64,000 nt of DNA, taken from positions 248,001-312,000 of the forward strand of contig JABMLP010000026.1 of the NCBI GenBank assembly GCA_013176395.1. The letters run 5' to 3'. Source of the stretch: Venturia oleaginea (Eukaryota; Ascomycota; Dothideomycetes; Venturiales; Venturiaceae). The notes under the pieces were generated by a model. That model saw only the letters and a list, made by a program, of their open reading frames with translations, was not told the DNA's origin and ran no database searches. Within the stretch, counting starts at the first letter, position 1, and every line of letters starts with the position of its first letter. Shown here one piece after another: positions 18,344 through 63,737 of the stretch. The position numbers and the translations under genes were made by a program.

Positions 18344-19438
18344 ATGCGTAGCAACAGTACCCTATCGACTCCTACAACCTACACCCCTACTACCGACGAC
18401 GACCCAATCGCGAGCATTACGCAAGGAATCGACAAACTCTCAATGGCTCGAGCAAATTCGCCTGACACCGTACAACAATTGGTGGCAGCTCTGACCGCAG
18501 TCAGTGTTGATGGGAACACCGGTGCAAAAGCTATTGCATGGCCTAAATGGGACGGGAAAAGAGACAACTACACGCTGTTCAGATGGCAGATCAAGACAAA
18601 AATCACTGTTGAAAATGGGAAGCTTGGAAGCAATCAAGGAATATGCGCGAACATCTTCAACGGGCTTCCGACAGAGAAACAACAACGCGTCATCCAATGG
18701 CTAAGCAATGGAGAGCAACATGACAACTACGAACCCGAGTCCTTTATCAAGCATATGGACGACAAGTTCTTAGATCATGAAGCGGAAGCTAAAGCTCTCG
18801 ACGAGCTGAACAAGATTAGCCAAGGCAGCAGACAACCGTTCGAAGACTTCCGCCAGCAGTTCGAACAACTGACATCGCAAGCTGGATCCCTAGCGCCGCA
18901 AAGAGCCTCAAAGATCACTATCATGAACAACGCGCTCAACTACTCCCTCCAACAGACCTTGAAATCAGTGCGATTGTCCAGGGACGACTACGACACTTAC
19001 GTAAAAGATGTACAGTACTTCGCGACGAAGACAGAGGCTCTATCCCACCAACGCCGCTATCCAAGTACGGATAAGGAGACGCCAACGACTCGAGGGAGCC
19101 CACAATCACCCCAAACAGTCAGTCGTGACGCAGAAGGCGATGTCGAAATGACTGGCATCAACGCCCTTTCAGCGCAGATCGCAGCACTGATAGCTCGGGT
19201 CGATACACTCGGAAAGGATGCGAAGAAGGACCGACGACCTAGAGCGAAATGGCGATCCCAAACAGAGTTCTTGGCACTTATACAAGCGGGCAAATGCGGG
19301 CGCTGTAAGAAGCCCAAGCACCATCCGAACGTATGCGAATTCCGACCAGCAACACGTCCAAAGACTCAGGTCACTGCGGTAATCACACAGCATACCGATG
19401 ACTCCCTACAGGAAGCCTCATCAGAGTCGGAAAACTAG
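18344..19438 (+). CDS. gag: Retrotransposon Gag protein
   Basis: An ORF of 364 residues from the ATG at 18344. A retrotransposon Gag-type capsid region is seen (IAWPKWDGKRDNYTLFRWQI, GLPTEKQQRVIQWLSNG, LDELNKISQGSRQPFEDF), then a linker and one nucleocapsid zinc knuckle of exact form C-x2-C-x4-H-x4-C (CGRCKKPKHHPNVC) near residue 320. Gag should assemble the particle and bind element RNA. It ends in TAG at 19436-19438 and overlaps the open pol frame (open from 19402), which lies in the -1 frame. An in-frame GTG/TTG start upstream of 18344 is possible but not needed. Confidence 0.9.
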   Translation: MRSNSTLSTPTTYTPTTDDDPIASITQGIDKLSMARANSPDTVQQLVAALTAVSVDGNTGAKAIAWPKWDGKRDNYTLFRWQIKTKITVENGKLGSNQGICANIFNGLPTEKQQRVIQWLSNGEQHDNYEPESFIKHMDDKFLDHEAEAKALDELNKISQGSRQPFEDFRQQFEQLTSQAGSLAPQRASKITIMNNALNYSLQQTLKSVRLSRDDYDTYVKDVQYFATKTEALSHQRRYPSTDKETPTTRGSPQSPQTVSRDAEGDVEMTGINALSAQIAALIARVDTLGKDAKKDRRPRAKWRSQTEFLALIQAGKCGRCKKPKHHPNVCEFRPATRPKTQVTAVITQHTDDSLQEASSESEN

Positions 19439-19446
19439 CTACCCTT

Positions 19447-22400
19447 GTGCATCGTCGCGCACGAGGGTCTGAAGTAGATGTACATGGCGAAGACATTACA
19501 AAGCTACCAGGCATAAGAGAAATCAAAGCAGCAAAGGATAGGATGGAAAGTACACCCTTCTTGATAGATACCTTGATCAACGGAACTTCTTTCACCGAAT
19601 CCTTCTTTGATAACGGCTGCCTCCCTTATGCTGCTTTCAGCGAGAAGAGTGTCCAAACACATCGTCTACCGCGCATCCCAATTGACACCAAACAATTGGC
19701 ACTGGCTAAAGAGAGCCACGAGAACGGAGAAGACCTCCGTATTACGCACATGACCTACGCTACGATCGACATTGATGGTCGAGCAGAGCGAGTCTATGGG
19801 TATATAGTGAAAGGATTGAGCTTCCCTATTATCCTAGGCAAGGCATGGGCAGAGAGAAACTGGGTGCGATATATAGCAGCTAAGAGAAAGCTGCTTATTG
19901 GTCAAGGATCCCAGCGCATCACGGTAAGAGAAAAGGGGTGGCTAGAACAGAACACCAAAGTGCGAGACCGGCTCGCTCACGTGCGGGCGGCTTGTCTAGT
20001 GTCAGGATCTGTATTTGCAGCTATTGTTGGAAGGGCCCAGCGACGGTTGAGAAGAGATGGACCGGATGGTACACAAGTGCTGGCTATCTCGATGTCGGAT
20101 ATCAACAAGGCCCTAAGCAAGTTAGCAGAAAGAAAACAGAGAAAGACTGAGGAAGAAATCCGACAAGAGATACCAGAAGAAATAGCAGAGCATGCTGATG
20201 CCTTTCTCGACGACGAAGACGGAGAGATCGCGCCCCATCAAGAGGGTCGCGATCACGTTATCGAATTGATACGAGATGAACAAGGTCGCGAGGCAGAAGT
20301 TCCTTGGGGCCCATTATACGGCATGTCGAGGGAAGAGCTATTAGTCCTACGAAAAACACTTTCGGACTATATGGACAAGGGCTGGATACGCGCCAGCAAC
20401 TCACCAGCGGCAGCCCCAGTCTTATTTGTAAGGAAACCAGGTGGAGGCATTCGGATGTGTGTAGACTATCGGGCACTGAATCGAATCACTCGATCGGACC
20501 GCTACCCATTGCCACTAATCCGAGAAACCCTACGAAATCTAGCAACAGCGCGTTGGTACACCAAACTTGACGTCAGAGCGGCATTTCATCGGCTCCGCAT
20601 CAAGCACGGCGATGAGTGGAAAACGGCTTTTCGCACTCGATTTGGACTATTCGAATGGCTAGTTACCCCCTTCGGACTAGCTGGCGCACCCGCGAGCTTT
20701 CAACGATACATCAACGGAGTCCTACGGGAATCCCTAGATATCTGCTGTTCAGCCTACATGGACGATGTCTTGATATGGAGCGACGGCGACTATCTGGATC
20801 ACATGGTTAAGGTTAACCAAATTCTTGCCAAGCTCAAGACTGCTGGACTTCGGCTAGACTTAAGCAAGTGCGAGTTTGCTGTTCAGGAGGTCAAATATCT
20901 GGGGTTCATTATCACTGCAGGAGAAGGGATCAAAGTCGACCCAGAGAAAGTTGCCGCGATTAAAGAATGGGAGGCTCCAGTCAATGTCACAGGCGTACGC
21001 TCCTTCCTAGGCTTTGCAAATTTCTACCGAGACTTCATCGACAACTTCTCAGAGCTCTCCGACCCCTTAATCAAGTTAACACGGAAGGCCGTCGCTTTTG
21101 TCTGGAACAAAGAACATGAGAACGCCTTTCAAGTCTTGAAGGAGCTATTCATCTCCGCCCCAATACTGGCTCACTGGAATCCAGACCTGGATACGGTACT
21201 CGAGTGCGACTGCTCTGGCTACGCGCTGGGAGGCACGTTGTCGCAGAAGGATATGAAAGGAAAACTACGACCAGTAGCATACTTCTCCCGCAAGCTCACT
21301 GCGGCTGAATGTAACTACGAGATCCACGATAAAGAATTACTGGCAGTAATCAAGTCCATTGAACACTGGAGAGGAGAACTACGCAGTGTTGCAGCACCTT
21401 TCAAAGTCCTTACCGATCACAAGAATCTCCGCTACTTTATGACAGCGCAGCGTTTGTCAGAGAGACAAGCAAGATGGTCGCTAATTCTATCTGAGTACCA
21501 ATTCCAGCTGGAATTTCGCGCCGGAAAACTAGCGCAAAGACCAGACGCACTATCAAGAAGACATCAAGATATGCCACATGACAAGAACGACGAGAGACTA
21601 CAAGGGCGAGTGGCCCAGTTGATCAAGGACGAATGGCTTCCTCCTCTTTCCGAGAGGACGACCGAAACAATCGCAATACAAGCCCTTATCTGCCCAGTCA
21701 ATACACCGAATACATCCAATAGTACATGGGACGTTATACGGGAGCCCCAGCAAAATACTGGACTGGACGGTCGACACCAGCTGACTGCCGAAAACGGTCA
21801 ACACCGGTCCACTACTAGGTACGGTCAAAACCGGTCAGTTGCAAAAGGATGCGATCTTTTCGAGAAACCAGAGTTACAACTTCTCTGGGATCGCGCAATA
21901 GCAGAGGACCAATCCTACGAAGCTATTCATACGGCTATAGTTACTGGCGAACGTTCCTTTCCTCCAGAGCTCAAGTTGTCGGTACAGCTACCCGAATGCG
22001 AAGTAGACGACCACGGCGCGGTCACGAGAAGAGGGATCCTATGGGTACCAGATTGGGAACCGCTGCGAACAACGCTGGTCCAACAAACTCACGATTCCCA
22101 TGTTACTGGACACCCAGGGAGAGATAGCACGCTTGCGATTCTATCCAGAAGTTTCTTTTGGCCCCAACAATACAAGACAGTCCGGCAGTTTGTACGTAAT
22201 TGCGACGTATGTGGGAGAACAGGAATATGGCGTGATAAGAAGCGAGGTCTTCTGAAACCACTTCCAATCCCGGCCCGCTTCCACAGCGAGCTATCAATCG
22301 ATTTCATGACTGATTTGCCCGCGGAGGAAAACGGCCCAAAATACCTCATGGTTATCACAGATCGCCTCCTCAAAAGTGTTACGTTGGAGGCTATGACTAC

Positions 22401-23523
22401 AATGAGCGCCAAAGAGTGCGCGAAAAGGTTCTTACAATGCCACTATCGCTACCACGGATTTCCCATGGCATTGACGTCGGACAGAGGCAGCAATTGGACA
22501 GGTCGTTTTTGGAGGAAGCTTTGCGAACTTACAAAGATTGAGCAGAGACTCTCTACAGCCTTTCATCCACAGACCGATGGCGCGACCGAGCGTATGAACC
22601 AGGAAGTTCTACGCTATCTCCGCGCCTTCATCGCATACTCCCAACTAGACTGGCCAACGCTACTACCTACGGCTATGTTAGCACTGAACAATCGTGACTC
22701 TTCAGTCACAGGGATGAGTCCATTCTATCTAACTCACGGCTACCATGCGGAACCAATCCAGAAAGTACAACGAATCTCACCCAGTAACTCACCAACAGCC
22801 GATGCCGAGACCTTTGTGCAACGAATAGAAGAGGCACAAGAATATGCACAGGCAGCGATGGCCTGGTCCCAGCAGAAGATGGAGAACGACGCCAACAGGT
22901 CACGTCAAGCTGCCGAAACGTTAAAAAAGGGCGACAAAGTCTGGTTGAACCTTAGGAATATCAATACTCCGCAGCTATCAAAGAAACTGTCGTGGACGCA
23001 AGCCAAATACACTGTCGAGAACCAGATCTCCCCGATGGTATACGAGCTGGCTGACCTGCCAAGTGGTATCCATAACCGTTTCCACGTTGACCTACTCCGC
23101 CGAGCCGCAACCGACACACTGCCCTCACAAGAATCCGATGATACCCAGCCGCCACCATTAGTGCCTCAAACCGAAGAAACAGAGGCTGAGTTTGAAGTAG
23201 AACGTATACTTCGCGCAGAGAAGAAACGGGTTGGGCGAGGCTGGGTTCGTCAGTTATTAATCAAATGGAAAGGCTATGCAGATCCCGATTGGCAGCCACG
23301 TTCATTATTTACAGAAGTCGAGGACTTAGACCGCTTCGAGGCAGAGTATGGCAAGGGCGACGGTGTCGGCGAAGATATAGGAGCTCAAACAGGGGCCCGA
23401 AGAAACCGAGTAGCGGTGGCCAGCGCCTTCGAATCTGCTACAAGCTGGCAGAAGCGATGTATGGCGTTTGTCTGTTTGATTATCCCACCTACCACACCCT
23501 CTTTAGTCCTGCACACCCGGTAA
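19447..23523 (+). CDS. pol: Retrotransposon Pol polyprotein with C-terminal chromodomain
   Basis: The pol frame is open from 19402 to the TAA at 23521-23523. It has no ATG near its beginning, so it is probably made by -1 frameshifting or reinitiation from gag. Numbered from 19447: aspartic protease around residue 50 (catalytic FFDNGC, so D-N-G rather than D-S/T-G); reverse transcriptase with YMDD at 437-440; RNase H (LTDHKNLRYFMT); integrase zinc finger HHCC from about 882 to 925; integrase core D952, D1012, E1048 (a D-x35-E spacing); and a chromodomain from about 1249 (FEVERILRAEKK, LLIKWKGYADPDW). Chromodomains bind methylated histone tails and guide insertion. Full length, no stop or frameshift seen. 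Confidence 0.95.
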   Translation: MHRRARGSEVDVHGEDITKLPGIREIKAAKDRMESTPFLIDTLINGTSFTESFFDNGCLPYAAFSEKSVQTHRLPRIPIDTKQLALAKESHENGEDLRITHMTYATIDIDGRAERVYGYIVKGLSFPIILGKAWAERNWVRYIAAKRKLLIGQGSQRITVREKGWLEQNTKVRDRLAHVRAACLVSGSVFAAIVGRAQRRLRRDGPDGTQVLAISMSDINKALSKLAERKQRKTEEEIRQEIPEEIAEHADAFLDDEDGEIAPHQEGRDHVIELIRDEQGREAEVPWGPLYGMSREELLVLRKTLSDYMDKGWIRASNSPAAAPVLFVRKPGGGIRMCVDYRALNRITRSDRYPLPLIRETLRNLATARWYTKLDVRAAFHRLRIKHGDEWKTAFRTRFGLFEWLVTPFGLAGAPASFQRYINGVLRESLDICCSAYMDDVLIWSDGDYLDHMVKVNQILAKLKTAGLRLDLSKCEFAVQEVKYLGFIITAGEGIKVDPEKVAAIKEWEAPVNVTGVRSFLGFANFYRDFIDNFSELSDPLIKLTRKAVAFVWNKEHENAFQVLKELFISAPILAHWNPDLDTVLECDCSGYALGGTLSQKDMKGKLRPVAYFSRKLTAAECNYEIHDKELLAVIKSIEHWRGELRSVAAPFKVLTDHKNLRYFMTAQRLSERQARWSLILSEYQFQLEFRAGKLAQRPDALSRRHQDMPHDKNDERLQGRVAQLIKDEWLPPLSERTTETIAIQALICPVNTPNTSNSTWDVIREPQQNTGLDGRHQLTAENGQHRSTTRYGQNRSVAKGCDLFEKPELQLLWDRAIAEDQSYEAIHTAIVTGERSFPPELKLSVQLPECEVDDHGAVTRRGILWVPDWEPLRTTLVQQTHDSHVTGHPGRDSTLAILSRSFFWPQQYKTVRQFVRNCDVCGRTGIWRDKKRGLLKPLPIPARFHSELSIDFMTDLPAEENGPKYLMVITDRLLKSVTLEAMTTMSAKECAKRFLQCHYRYHGFPMALTSDRGSNWTGRFWRKLCELTKIEQRLSTAFHPQTDGATERMNQEVLRYLRAFIAYSQLDWPTLLPTAMLALNNRDSSVTGMSPFYLTHGYHAEPIQKVQRISPSNSPTADAETFVQRIEEAQEYAQAAMAWSQQKMENDANRSRQAAETLKKGDKVWLNLRNINTPQLSKKLSWTQAKYTVENQISPMVYELADLPSGIHNRFHVDLLRRAATDTLPSQESDDTQPPPLVPQTEETEAEFEVERILRAEKKRVGRGWVRQLLIKWKGYADPDWQPRSLFTEVEDLDRFEAEYGKGDGVGEDIGAQTGARRNRVAVASAFESATSWQKRCMAFVCLIIPPTTPSLVLHTR

Positions 23524-49257: not shown

Positions 49258-49398
49258 GACACGATGGTGTAATGGCTAGCACGTCAGACCTGTGATTGAC
49301 TGTGCATCACGGTCCGTCAGTCCTGCTCGGTTGAGAGGGCACCGGCGTGTACCCCCGGTGGGCTTCTGGATATCTCAGTTCGATCCTGAGTCGTGTTG
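49258..49398 (+). tRNA. tRNA-like locus, possibly tRNA-His(GTG), with a long structured insert
   Basis: Acceptor arms GACACGA (49258-49264) and TCGTGTT (49391-49397) pair. A normal D arm follows (TGGTGTAATGGCTAGCAC, also an A box), and the T arm is perfect (CTCAG-TTCGATC-CTGAG, also a B box). TTTTT at 49403-49407 is a Pol III terminator. TCAGA could pair with TCTGG as anticodon stem, leaving about 68 nt as an intron. The intron contains ATCAC, which can pair with the candidate anticodon GTGAT as tRNA introns do, plus a CACCGG/CCGGTG hairpin. One extra C in the anticodon arm spoils a perfect fold, so the identity is unsure. It could instead be a damaged tRNA gene or a tRNA-derived short interspersed element. 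Confidence 0.45.
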
Positions 49399-58185: not shown

Positions 58186-60457
58186 ATGCTGTTCTCATCG
58201 AGCCTTTGGGTCACAGCCCTTCTCGCCACGACAGGCGTAGCATCGCCATCACCACAGCGGAGACAAGCTGCCCCAATTGCTGTCACTGGACTTGCGGGAC
58301 AATCCATACAGCCAAGATTGGAAGTTCGCGAACTTCAACAACAGCACCCTGATCAGTGGAATGTCTACATACTGGGATTACTTCGTATGCAACAAGTGGA
58401 CCAGAGCGACTTTCTGTCACATTTCCAGCTCGCAGGTGCGTAGTCTGCTGTACCACGCCGTGTCGTCAATTCAGTGCTCCTCGAGCTACACAGTCATCCA
58501 AAATACCGTTGGCTTCGAACTCTCTCAATTCGAGATCGATTGCGCTAAATTTCTGGCAACGAAAACTTCCCAAGATTGCCAGGAGTTTACGAACATTGAT
58601 CTCAAGTTGCGGATGGTGGTTCCAATTGAGCTGTACCTCGAGGGCCATGAATGAATGGAGCCAGTGTGGTGCCAGTTTTACCGTATGTTTGCTGATAAAT
58701 TTCTCTAGGTATTCATGGAGTTCCTGCGTCCAATTGGGCCGGTGTTACTGGCGTGCCGAACCCAAGAGGAGCAGGATGGTGCACACATGCTTCCAACCTT
58801 TTCCTTTCATGGCACCGACCCTATCTTGCAATCTATGAACAAGTGGTTTCAAAGCATGCTATGGATGCGGCCCGTGAATTTACTGGAGCTGACCATGATC
58901 GATATGTTACTGCTGCTCAAAACCTTCGCATTCCTTATTGGGACTGGGCGAGGCCTGTATCTTCCGGACAACATGCTGTTGCAGACAGCTTAAGCTCTTC
59001 AGGAGTTGTTGTGAACACCCCTCAGCAGTCGCAAGTTACCGTTCAAAATCCTTTGTATTCCTATCGGTTCCATCCAGTTGATTCAAGACTGGGATCTCCT
59101 GTGAGTCGATCTCATTTTCTTGGCAATGCCGTCAACAGCATGCCACTCTCGCTAGTTCGAGGCAAATATGGCTAGCCACTAACTCTCCTAAAACAGTATG
59201 TTAACTACGCTACCACTCTCCGCTACCCAACAACAAGAGATTCATCTGCTCGATCACAGGACTCGCAAATGATCTCAGGGGTTGATGCCCAGCAAGATGG
59301 TCTAAGACAGCGTGTCTACAACATTCTCAGCAACCAAAACAACTACTCCACTACAGGCTGCGAAGGCCCTTCATGCCATGGAGGTGCTTCAGGATTTGAC
59401 AGCATTGAGTCGATCCACGACGTGATCCACACTGTGACAGGTGGAAATGGTGGTGACATGACAAACATTGGGGTGTCCGCTTTCGACCCAATCTTCTGGT
59501 TACACCACACCACGATAGACAGGCTCTCTGCCCTGTTCCAAGGCCTAAACCCAGACAGCTATGTCCGCTCCGCGCCTCAAGCACGAAGCAACTACTGGTA
59601 CAACGCAAATGATGTATTGGGTGCTGATGCTCCATTGAAGCCATTCTACGCAGACACCAATGGAAATTTCCACACTTCAGACTCCGTTCGCGACCACACC
59701 AAGTTCGGCTACACATACTCCGAGCTCACCTCCGGGGACCGTGATGATATCGTCGCATCTATTAACCAGCTCTACGGTGGCAGCACCGCGCCCATGACTA
59801 AGCGCTCCTTGATCGGCGTCGCCCAGAACATCACCCAGACCGCCGCCAACATCACATCATCCTACGGTTCCGAGGTTGCCTCATACTTCCCATCCCGCGA
59901 ATACGTTACCAACATCCAAGCCGAAAAGTATGGTAAATTCGGATCCTACTTCATCCACGTTTTCCTCGGGGAACCAAGCTCGGATCCTTCTTGCTGGAGC
60001 ACGGATCCAAATTTGGTTGGAACACATGCGATCTTCTCCACTGCCGCTGATGGGGACAGTGACCAATCTCCTGTTATTGTCACGGGTGCTATGCCTTTGA
60101 CAGATGCGTTGAAGAAGCACCATCTTGGCGGCAAACTCACGTCGTTGGCCGAGGCGGTCATTGTGCCTTATCTTAAAGCTAACTTGGTCTGGAAAGCACA
60201 AAAGGTACGTTTTTCCTCTCTCCCAGTCTTGAAGTGAGGATATCATTTTACTAACTGAAGAACAGACCGAGGGCTGCGAAATCCCACACACAGAGTTACC
60301 TGATCTCCAAGTCTCAGTGGCAAGTACCCAGATCCAACCCGCGAACTCCATCTTCGAATTCCCAAAGTGGGTTGGTGACTGGAAGATACATACGGACGTT
60401 ACGGACGGCAAGCCAAACGGTATCTGCGACGTGCGAGAACTCCTATCGTTGTATTAA
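58186..60457 (+). CDS. Tyrosinase (polyphenol oxidase), probably secreted
   Basis: Four exons (58186-58435, 58709-59100, 59197-60204, 60266-60457) give 613 residues. A signal-like start (LFSSSLWVTALLATTGVASP) precedes the type-3 copper domain. CuA ligands are His86 (GIHG), His110 (CTHAS) and His119 (WHRPY), with Cys108 placed for the Cys-x-His thioether bond. CuB ligands are His288 and His292 (IHDVIH) and His317 (FWLHHTTIDR). FGYTYSEL is the tyrosine motif that ends the catalytic domain, followed by a C-terminal domain usual in fungal pro-tyrosinases. The enzyme hydroxylates monophenols and oxidises diphenols to quinones in melanin or phenol metabolism. Intron 1 is long (273 bp) and separates CuA His86 from the preceding helix, but the joined sequence fits the family. 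Confidence 0.93.
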
Positions 60458-62999: not shown

Positions 63000-63542
63000 A
63001 AGCCATACAACAAGGATCTTGATCTTGAGATTATTTCACGCAACATCCACAACGACACTTGCCTTCGTGGAGTGGAGCCACGTTCAGCTAGTATTCCTAC
63101 ATACTTCCGTACCAGAGATGGTTTGAGGAATCACAGCTAGCTGTAAGATATATCCGGCACAAGAAGGAAAAGAGAAAGCATCACGGAGAAGATTGAAAGC
63201 CAGATGTACCAGGCATAATCTATCAAGAGCAGGGTAGACGTATATGGAAGAGCAGCCATTTTCGGGAGGCTGAAGTGGACGACTGCAAGATGGAATTCCT
63301 GGTCAACCGGACACTATCTGGTTCATAGAATAGGGCGACAGGATGATAATGTTTAACTCATTTCCACCGAATCACACTCCAGACAGCTTCTTATAGGCTG
63401 AGCTTCCCCTGCACGACCGTCCACGGTCATCGCCCCACAAAAACGAAAAAATGCACACCGCATCCACAGAAACTCACTATCATCAAAATCACAATTCAAA
63501 ACAGAAAAGAGCAAAAAGGAGTCCCTGGAGAACTATATAATC
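63000..63542. other. Intergenic region with Pol III terminator
   Basis: Contains the 3' flank of PYM and, near its right end, AAAAA at 63513-63517, which on the minus strand is a TTTTT terminator 25 nt beyond the tRNA-Glu gene. No other feature is supported. Confidence 0.5.
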
Positions 63543-63737
63543 TTCCGATGCCGGGAATTGAACCCGGGCTGAATATTTTTTAGCACTATGTAGGGGCATG
63601 TCGACAGCTGATGATAACGTACCCTACCCGGAACATGCTCGTTGATGAGAGCGGGTAATCCTAGCCACTGAGAAGCTTGTTAGTCGTTGTGCAGGTTGTT
63701 TGATGGGGTTGTGTTTACTAACCTAGACCACATCGGA
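63543..63737 (-). tRNA. tRNA-Glu(CTC) interrupted by three insertions
   Basis: Removing three segments gives a perfect 72-nt tRNA. Exons are 63737-63723, 63667-63646, 63631-63623 and 63568-63543. Acceptor TCCGATG pairs with CATCGGA; the D arm is GTCT...GGAT; the anticodon stem ACCCG/CGGGT is perfect with loop CTCTCAC (anticodon CTC at 63649-63647); the T arm is CCGGG-TTCAATT-CCCGG. The 14-nt insert 63645-63632 sits at the canonical 37/38 site and contains GAG, able to pair with the anticodon. The insert 63722-63668 (55 nt, GTTAGT...CGACTAAC...TTCTCAG) lies in the D loop after position 15. The insert 63622-63569 (54 nt, GTACGT...GTGCTAAA...ATTCAG) lies in the variable loop. The last two look like spliceosomal introns. 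A TTTTT terminator follows. It is either a working gene with extraordinary processing or a dead copy. Confidence 0.8.

Follow-up and report, generated by a model that had tools for sequence, protein, structure and literature searches.

Probable spliceosomal introns at non-canonical positions of nuclear tRNA genes in Venturia oleaginea

The window, meaning the whole 64,000-nt stretch of DNA that was analyzed, corresponds to C19:248001-312000 of the 46-Mb, 61-contig genome of Venturia oleaginea. On its minus strand, positions 63543-63737 hold a tRNA-Glu(CTC) gene in four pieces separated by 55, 14, and 54 nt, as established by direct reading and a script parse. Its parts, in order of transcription, are:

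63723..63737, minus strand: tRNA-Glu(CTC) exon 1, positions 1-15 (direct reading, script parse)
63668..63722, minus strand: insert 1, in the D loop, 55 nt, GTTAGT..GACTAAC..CTCAG (script parse; placement checked against the uninterrupted paralogue on C56)
63646..63667, minus strand: exon 2a, with the remaining D arm, anticodon CTC, and position 37 (script parse)
63632..63645, minus strand: canonical 37/38 intron, 14 nt (script parse; ARAGORN i(38,14) on the joined sequence)
63623..63631, minus strand: exon 2b, with the 3' anticodon stem and the first part of the variable loop (script parse)
63569..63622, minus strand: insert 2, in the variable loop, 54 nt, GTACGT..GCTAAA..TTCAG, without CTRAY (script parse)
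63543..63568, minus strand: exon 3, with the T arm, the 3' strand of the acceptor, and the discriminator (script parse)
63513..63517, minus strand: TTTTT run downstream, probable Pol III terminator (direct reading)

When the pieces were joined, the script parse gave a tRNA of 72 nt with 7/7 pairs in the acceptor stem, 5/5 in the anticodon stem, and 5/5 in the T stem. The first-pass annotation had read the gene in this way from the letters, and both the parse and ARAGORN agree with it; given the joined sequence, ARAGORN called Glu(CTC) and reported i(38,14), which also bears out the placement of the 14-nt piece at the canonical 37/38 site, whereas for the unjoined sequence it called the wrong tRNA (Cys). 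Neither ARAGORN nor Rfam found any tRNA in the raw 64-kb window. We compared the parse with surrogate windows that had the trinucleotide statistics of the window, allowing up to two GT..AG removals, and the gene scored 23.7 versus a best value of 20.1 among 61 T-arm-like sites in 60 surrogates. Elsewhere in the window, a tRNA-like candidate on the plus strand (49258-49398) has good acceptor, D, and T arms and some 69 extra nt in the anticodon loop; it was missed by ARAGORN and Rfam, and no CTRAY was seen in it by eye. A 1373-aa open frame at 19402-23523, also on the plus strand, resembles by eye the polyprotein of a Ty3/gypsy-type LTR retrotransposon.

Insert 1 interrupts the D loop after position 15, while insert 2 lies at AGG^, the same site as the inserts in both Trp genes described below. 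Genome searches with the 5' end and the 3' end of Glu(CTC) each returned four exact places. Three of the four exact genes (C19, C1, and C9) have a D-loop insert at the same site but with different letters. Inserts were also present in a divergent Glu(CTC) copy on C2 and in three Glu(TTC) genes, two of which (C12 and C45) carry three inserts each, two in the D region and one in the T loop, with a micro-exon of 3 or 4 nt between the two D-region inserts. The possibility that the window holds the only Glu(CTC) gene of the genome, in which case it would have to work, fell away, as C56:74271-74355 is another Glu(CTC) gene with a 37/38 intron only, and the window copy alone is therefore no proof of function.

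We then determined how widely such genes occur. In the delimited set from the whole genome, 28 tRNA genes with 17 anticodons carry 36 GT..AG inserts, 20 of them in the D-arm region, 3 in the variable loop, and 13 in the T arm. The inserts are 48-89 nt long (48-56 nt in 32 of the 36), and 21 of the 28 genes have a 37/38 intron as well. In the Rfam tRNA search, 63 of 1697 candidates were scored and at least 62 matched, 15 on C38, a contig that looks mitochondrial, and 47 elsewhere. Among the matches listed, 37 of the 47 outside C38 parsed as uninterrupted and eight as interrupted; the latter, which had a long span or a low score, comprise one gene each for Arg(TCT), Arg(CCG), Arg(TCG), and Gly(CCC) and two each for Ser(AGA) and Ser(GCT). 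The remaining two (L093 and L094, at C19:646319-646392 and C60:820814-820887) are a weak, near-identical, tRNA-like pair that was not parsed as tRNA.

A generic B-box pattern matched at 148 places, and of the first 100 of them, which lie on contigs C1-C34, 31 were read. Nine were interrupted, 11 were uninterrupted by the parser, L132 was uninterrupted, and 10 gave no clear parse; the interrupted genes found by this route were Pro(CGG), Leu(AAG), Leu(CAA), Leu(CAG), Ala(CGC), Lys(CTT), Ile(TAT), and Gly(TCC). Places L105, L106, L110, L116, L118, L126, L130, L131, L133, and L134, some of which are tRNAs by eye, were excluded from both counts. Searches aimed at single tRNAs brought in four more interrupted genes, namely the second Arg(TCT), the third Leu(AAG), and two for Trp. 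The uninterrupted tRNA genes seen numbered 53, including three Glu genes and L143 by eye and two on C58 that are perhaps organellar. Both kinds of copy exist for Glu, Lys(CTT), Gly(TCC), Ser, Arg(TCG), Leu(CAA), and Ala(CGC). These Rfam, B-box, and targeted searches did not recover Tyr, Cys, Val(AAC/CAC), Pro(AGG/TGG), and Arg(ACG), among others, so the genome has at least 28 interrupted genes, and the search route biases the share that they make up. The spread of the 28 genes across many contigs rules out an assembly error or a lone freak locus. One 25-mer with a B-box-like core was seen on contigs C1, C6, C8, C14, C15, C22, and C28; it is a repeated element, near a contig end in some places and perhaps subtelomeric.

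All 36 inserts begin with GT and end with AG, ends which helped to delimit some of them. As a control, we drew 20,000 random GT..AG segments from the window with lengths matched to the inserts. A GTRNG donor was found in 31/36 inserts versus 10.3% of the random segments, a CTRAY branch site, which had played no part in delimiting the inserts, in 31/36 versus 7.4%, and the two together in 26/36 versus 1.1%. In these 31, the distance between the branch A and the insert's 3' end is 8-18 nt, with 25 at 10-12 nt. Five inserts have no GTRNG, and five have no CTRAY, among them the C8 Trp insert and insert 2 of the window gene. Of the two branch sites initially proposed for that gene, CTAAC in insert 1 thus stood, but GCTAAA in insert 2 does not match CTRAY. 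In paralogue-guided placement, which used insert lengths from the prior delimitation, a GT..AG position was one of the equally good placements for 15 of the 16 genes, with 0.16 expected; the lone miss was the C13 Ser gene, which had been compared with the other Ser(AGA) family.

Five mRNA introns of this genome (fimbrin and tyrosinase) served as a small sample for comparison, three of eight predictions, at the tyrosinase 5' end, having been left out as doubtful. They are 47-96 nt long, with GTRNG in 5/5 and CTRAY in 4/5, and their donors are GTAAGA, GTAGGT, GTAAGG, GTGAGT, and GTACGT. The last of these, in the tyrosinase intron 60205-60265, is the donor of insert 2, a match that had been noticed at the outset. 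The fimbrin has 98% identity to that of Venturia inaequalis over 88% of the query, and the best named matches of the tyrosinase are in V. effusa, V. inaequalis, and V. nashicola (76-79%).

To assess the quality of the joined tRNAs, we ran ARAGORN with introns allowed. The expected isotype and anticodon were obtained for 25/28 joined versus 4/28 unjoined sequences, and the three misses among the joined sequences were Ile(TAT) and the anticodons of two Leu genes. Once joined, Lys, Gly(TCC), Arg(TCG), and one of the Ser(AGA) genes were identical at every position to an uninterrupted paralogue. The Trp genes parsed at 22.2 and 23.7, under most others, and the C8 copy has a poor acceptor stem. Some interrupted copies may be dying, given the T loop of 6 nt in Ala(CGC) on C9, the T stem short by one base in Leu(CAA) on C4, and the weak T stem of the C5 Ser gene.

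Signals around the genes fit transcription by Pol III. A T5 or longer run occurs within 80 nt downstream of 26/28 interrupted genes versus 5.5% of random 80-mers, and TATA[AT]A occurs between -60 and -16 in 6/28 versus 0.9% of random sequence. The B box is partly restored by the terminal AG of inserts at 51/52, 52/53, and 53/54. It is broken by inserts at 54/55, 57/58, and 59/60, which raises the question of how TFIIIC would bind and counts against the explanation that we favor below. A depletion of poly-T within the inserts was considered as a further Pol III sign and dropped, since the count of T5 runs in the 36 inserts (0 versus 2.3 expected) was not significantly low.

Other Pol III genes were also inspected. 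Two of the seven U6 loci over the cut-off contain GTAAGT..CTAAC..CAG inserts, both near the catalytic core:

C12:1178040-1178300: U6 with an insert at AGAGAA^GATTAGC (L146)
C36:59800-60060: U6 with an insert at AGCATG^GCCCC (L147)

Four other U6 loci were uninterrupted by span, one of which was read. The locus at C2:1122100-1122330 (L148) is U6-like and has no 5' half. For 5S rRNA, there was no insert of ~50 nt in the 33 matches over the cut-off, a search in which interrupted copies could be missed; 32 of these matches were 120-121 bases long and one was 106.

In the textbook case, a tRNA intron interrupts position 37/38 and a protein endonuclease cuts it out. The canonical introns described here accompany the inserts in 21/28 genes and differ from them in place and, on the reading we favor, in the machinery that would remove them. 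That reading, to which we assign a probability of roughly 0.87 from sequence evidence, is that these are mostly working nuclear tRNA genes with U2-type spliceosomal introns at many non-canonical positions of their Pol III transcripts.

It remained to consider where such inserts might come from. In 14 same-site comparisons, insert identity was 0.47-0.65 versus shuffled means of 0.48-0.59, with the largest excess at two standard deviations, while the mature sequences were 0.90-1.00 identical for same-anticodon pairs and 0.88 for Leu(CAA)/Leu(CAG). For Glu(CTC) on C19, C1, and C9, the mature sequences are identical and the inserts have 0.47-0.65 identity versus 0.48-0.55 for shuffled ones. The introns therefore look old, as same-site inserts of paralogues no longer align and the exon letters have been kept. 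Introner-like elements occur in Dothideomycetes, and the inserts are numerous and of similar size, as would be expected of members of a recently active introner-like transposon. We regard this origin, which would be compatible with spliceosomal removal, as unlikely, since an all-against-all comparison of the 36 inserts gave a single 13-nt match and same-site inserts are at or barely above shuffled identity. An ancient introner-like burst, as opposed to a recent one, may be compatible with that comparison. Tandem or SINE-like repeat copies were ruled out for the 12 loci compared by BLAST, in which similarity ends no more than ~40 bases from the gene ends.

Removal of the ectopic inserts by the Sen complex and ligase, with the GT..AG ends being incidental, was the other option raised in the first-pass annotation. 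Ectopic tRNA introns processed through a BHB motif are known in Cyanidioschyzon merolae, and ectopic introns occur also in algal nucleomorphs, according to excerpts of PMC3978253 and PMC4090602. Sen should moreover act on the interrupted genes, 21/28 of which have a 37/38 intron. We tested the strict form of the BHB motif, a 4-bp central helix between the end of exon 1 and the 3' end of the intron with 3-nt bulges. None of the 36 inserts had 4/4 pairs, and the mean was 1.39 of 4 versus 1.58 with the ends exchanged. Sen removal would also leave the donor and branch-site consensus at a fixed spacing unexplained. That consensus across the 36 inserts, the lack of a strict BHB helix, and the two U6 inserts favor spliceosomal removal, and make removal by Sen improbable, a little more so than a recent introner origin.

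A third explanation is that the interrupted copies are pseudogenes with intron-like insertions and that uninterrupted genes supply the cell. Uninterrupted copies do exist for seven of the isotypes or anticodons listed above, a few interrupted copies look degenerate, and, according to excerpts of the review PMC4090602, tRNA genes of other eukaryotes with D- or T-arm insertions are mostly or likely pseudogenes. However, a dead gene would drift in exons and inserts alike, and here the exons are intact while the inserts have diverged past alignment; T5 runs have also been kept downstream of the interrupted genes. For three anticodons, every copy detected is interrupted. Searches of the genome by 5' exon and 3' exon found two of two Trp(CCA) copies interrupted in the variable loop and two of two Arg(TCT) copies interrupted in the T arm, and a search by 3' exon found three of three Leu(AAG) copies interrupted in the D loop, one of them also in the T arm. 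These searches tolerate 2 or 3 mismatches, so that a more divergent copy could escape. No contiguous Trp(CCA), Arg(TCT), or Leu(AAG) was present among the 47 Rfam tRNA matches listed outside C38. C38 does have genes for Trp(CCA) and Arg(TCT), but these lie in dense tRNA clusters and appear to be mitochondrial. We consider it very unlikely, the least likely of these three alternatives, that the interrupted genes are pseudogenes. The catalytic core of a group I or II self-splicing intron takes up at least about 200 nt, and inserts of 48-89 nt are too short to hold one.

The second Arg(TCT) gene (L136, C20:147048) has A in place of T33, in which case the copy on C6 would be the only normal one. 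By standard wobble rules, we take Trp(CCA), Arg(TCT), and Leu(AAG) to be the sole decoders of UGG, AGA, and CUU/CUC. As every detected copy of these genes is interrupted, decoding of the corresponding codons should depend on removal of the inserts, and the fungus probably needs its mRNA-splicing machinery to make working tRNAs.

Under the spliceosomal reading, Pol III would transcribe each gene through to the T5+ terminator, and the spliceosome would take each ~50-nt GT..AG intron out of the nuclear pre-tRNA, restoring the D, V, and T regions. In 21/28 genes, the separate 37/38 intron would next be excised by the tRNA endonuclease and the ends joined by the ligase. The introns could plausibly have originated when excised introns were reverse-spliced into Pol III RNAs, as has been proposed for the intron of fission-yeast U6.

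Several known systems resemble this one in part. Spliceosomal introns in rDNA of lichen ascomycetes were reportedly described by Bhattacharya et al. in 2000, a study cited in excerpts of PMC8527467. Like them, the Venturia inserts are probably of spliceosomal type, ectopic to mRNA, and located in a structured ascomycete RNA, but they lie in Pol III tRNA rather than Pol I rRNA. The U6 gene of Schizosaccharomyces pombe has an mRNA-type intron within a Pol III RNA that is thought, in the excerpts of PMC10484740, to derive from reverse splicing. The inserts at the two U6 loci here are of the same kind, and the difference is that the host RNA is mainly tRNA, with 28 genes, 17 anticodons, and up to three inserts per gene. 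As in the tRNA genes of C. merolae and of the Guillardia theta nucleomorph, several introns lie outside 37/38, including the D and T regions. In the excerpts of the sources named above, however, the C. merolae introns are BHB-mediated, whereas the Venturia inserts have no strict BHB helix, and the G. theta introns are 3-24 nt long with a removal that is not understood, whereas those in Venturia are 48-89 nt long with GT, branch site, and AG. In the open-licence PMC literature, a scope that excludes subscription papers and preprints, we found no description of a tRNA gene with spliceosomal introns, and the string "spliceosom" is absent from the tRNA-intron review PMC4090602.

A practical consequence would be that a sizeable fraction of the tRNA genes escapes the usual tRNA finders, with ARAGORN recovering 4/28 of these genes even when introns are allowed. 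The genes would also offer a clean system for the study of intron gain, since the host RNA is highly structured, its exons are known exactly, uninterrupted paralogues exist, and there are micro-exons of 3-4 nt; reverse splicing into tRNA and U6 would be a testable route in it. If splicing of this kind is routine in the tRNA genes of this fungus, the spliceosome would act on Pol III transcripts far beyond U6, and tRNA maturation and mRNA splicing would be coupled. On present sequence data, it is likely, though less firmly than the identity of the introns, that part of the fungal tRNA supply is now spliceosome-dependent, with U2-type introns in a large share of the tRNA genes and in some U6 genes. 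Decoding of UGG, AGA, and CUU/CUC, and hence all translation, would then require splicing of Pol III transcripts, followed on many of the same molecules by the tRNA-endonuclease step.
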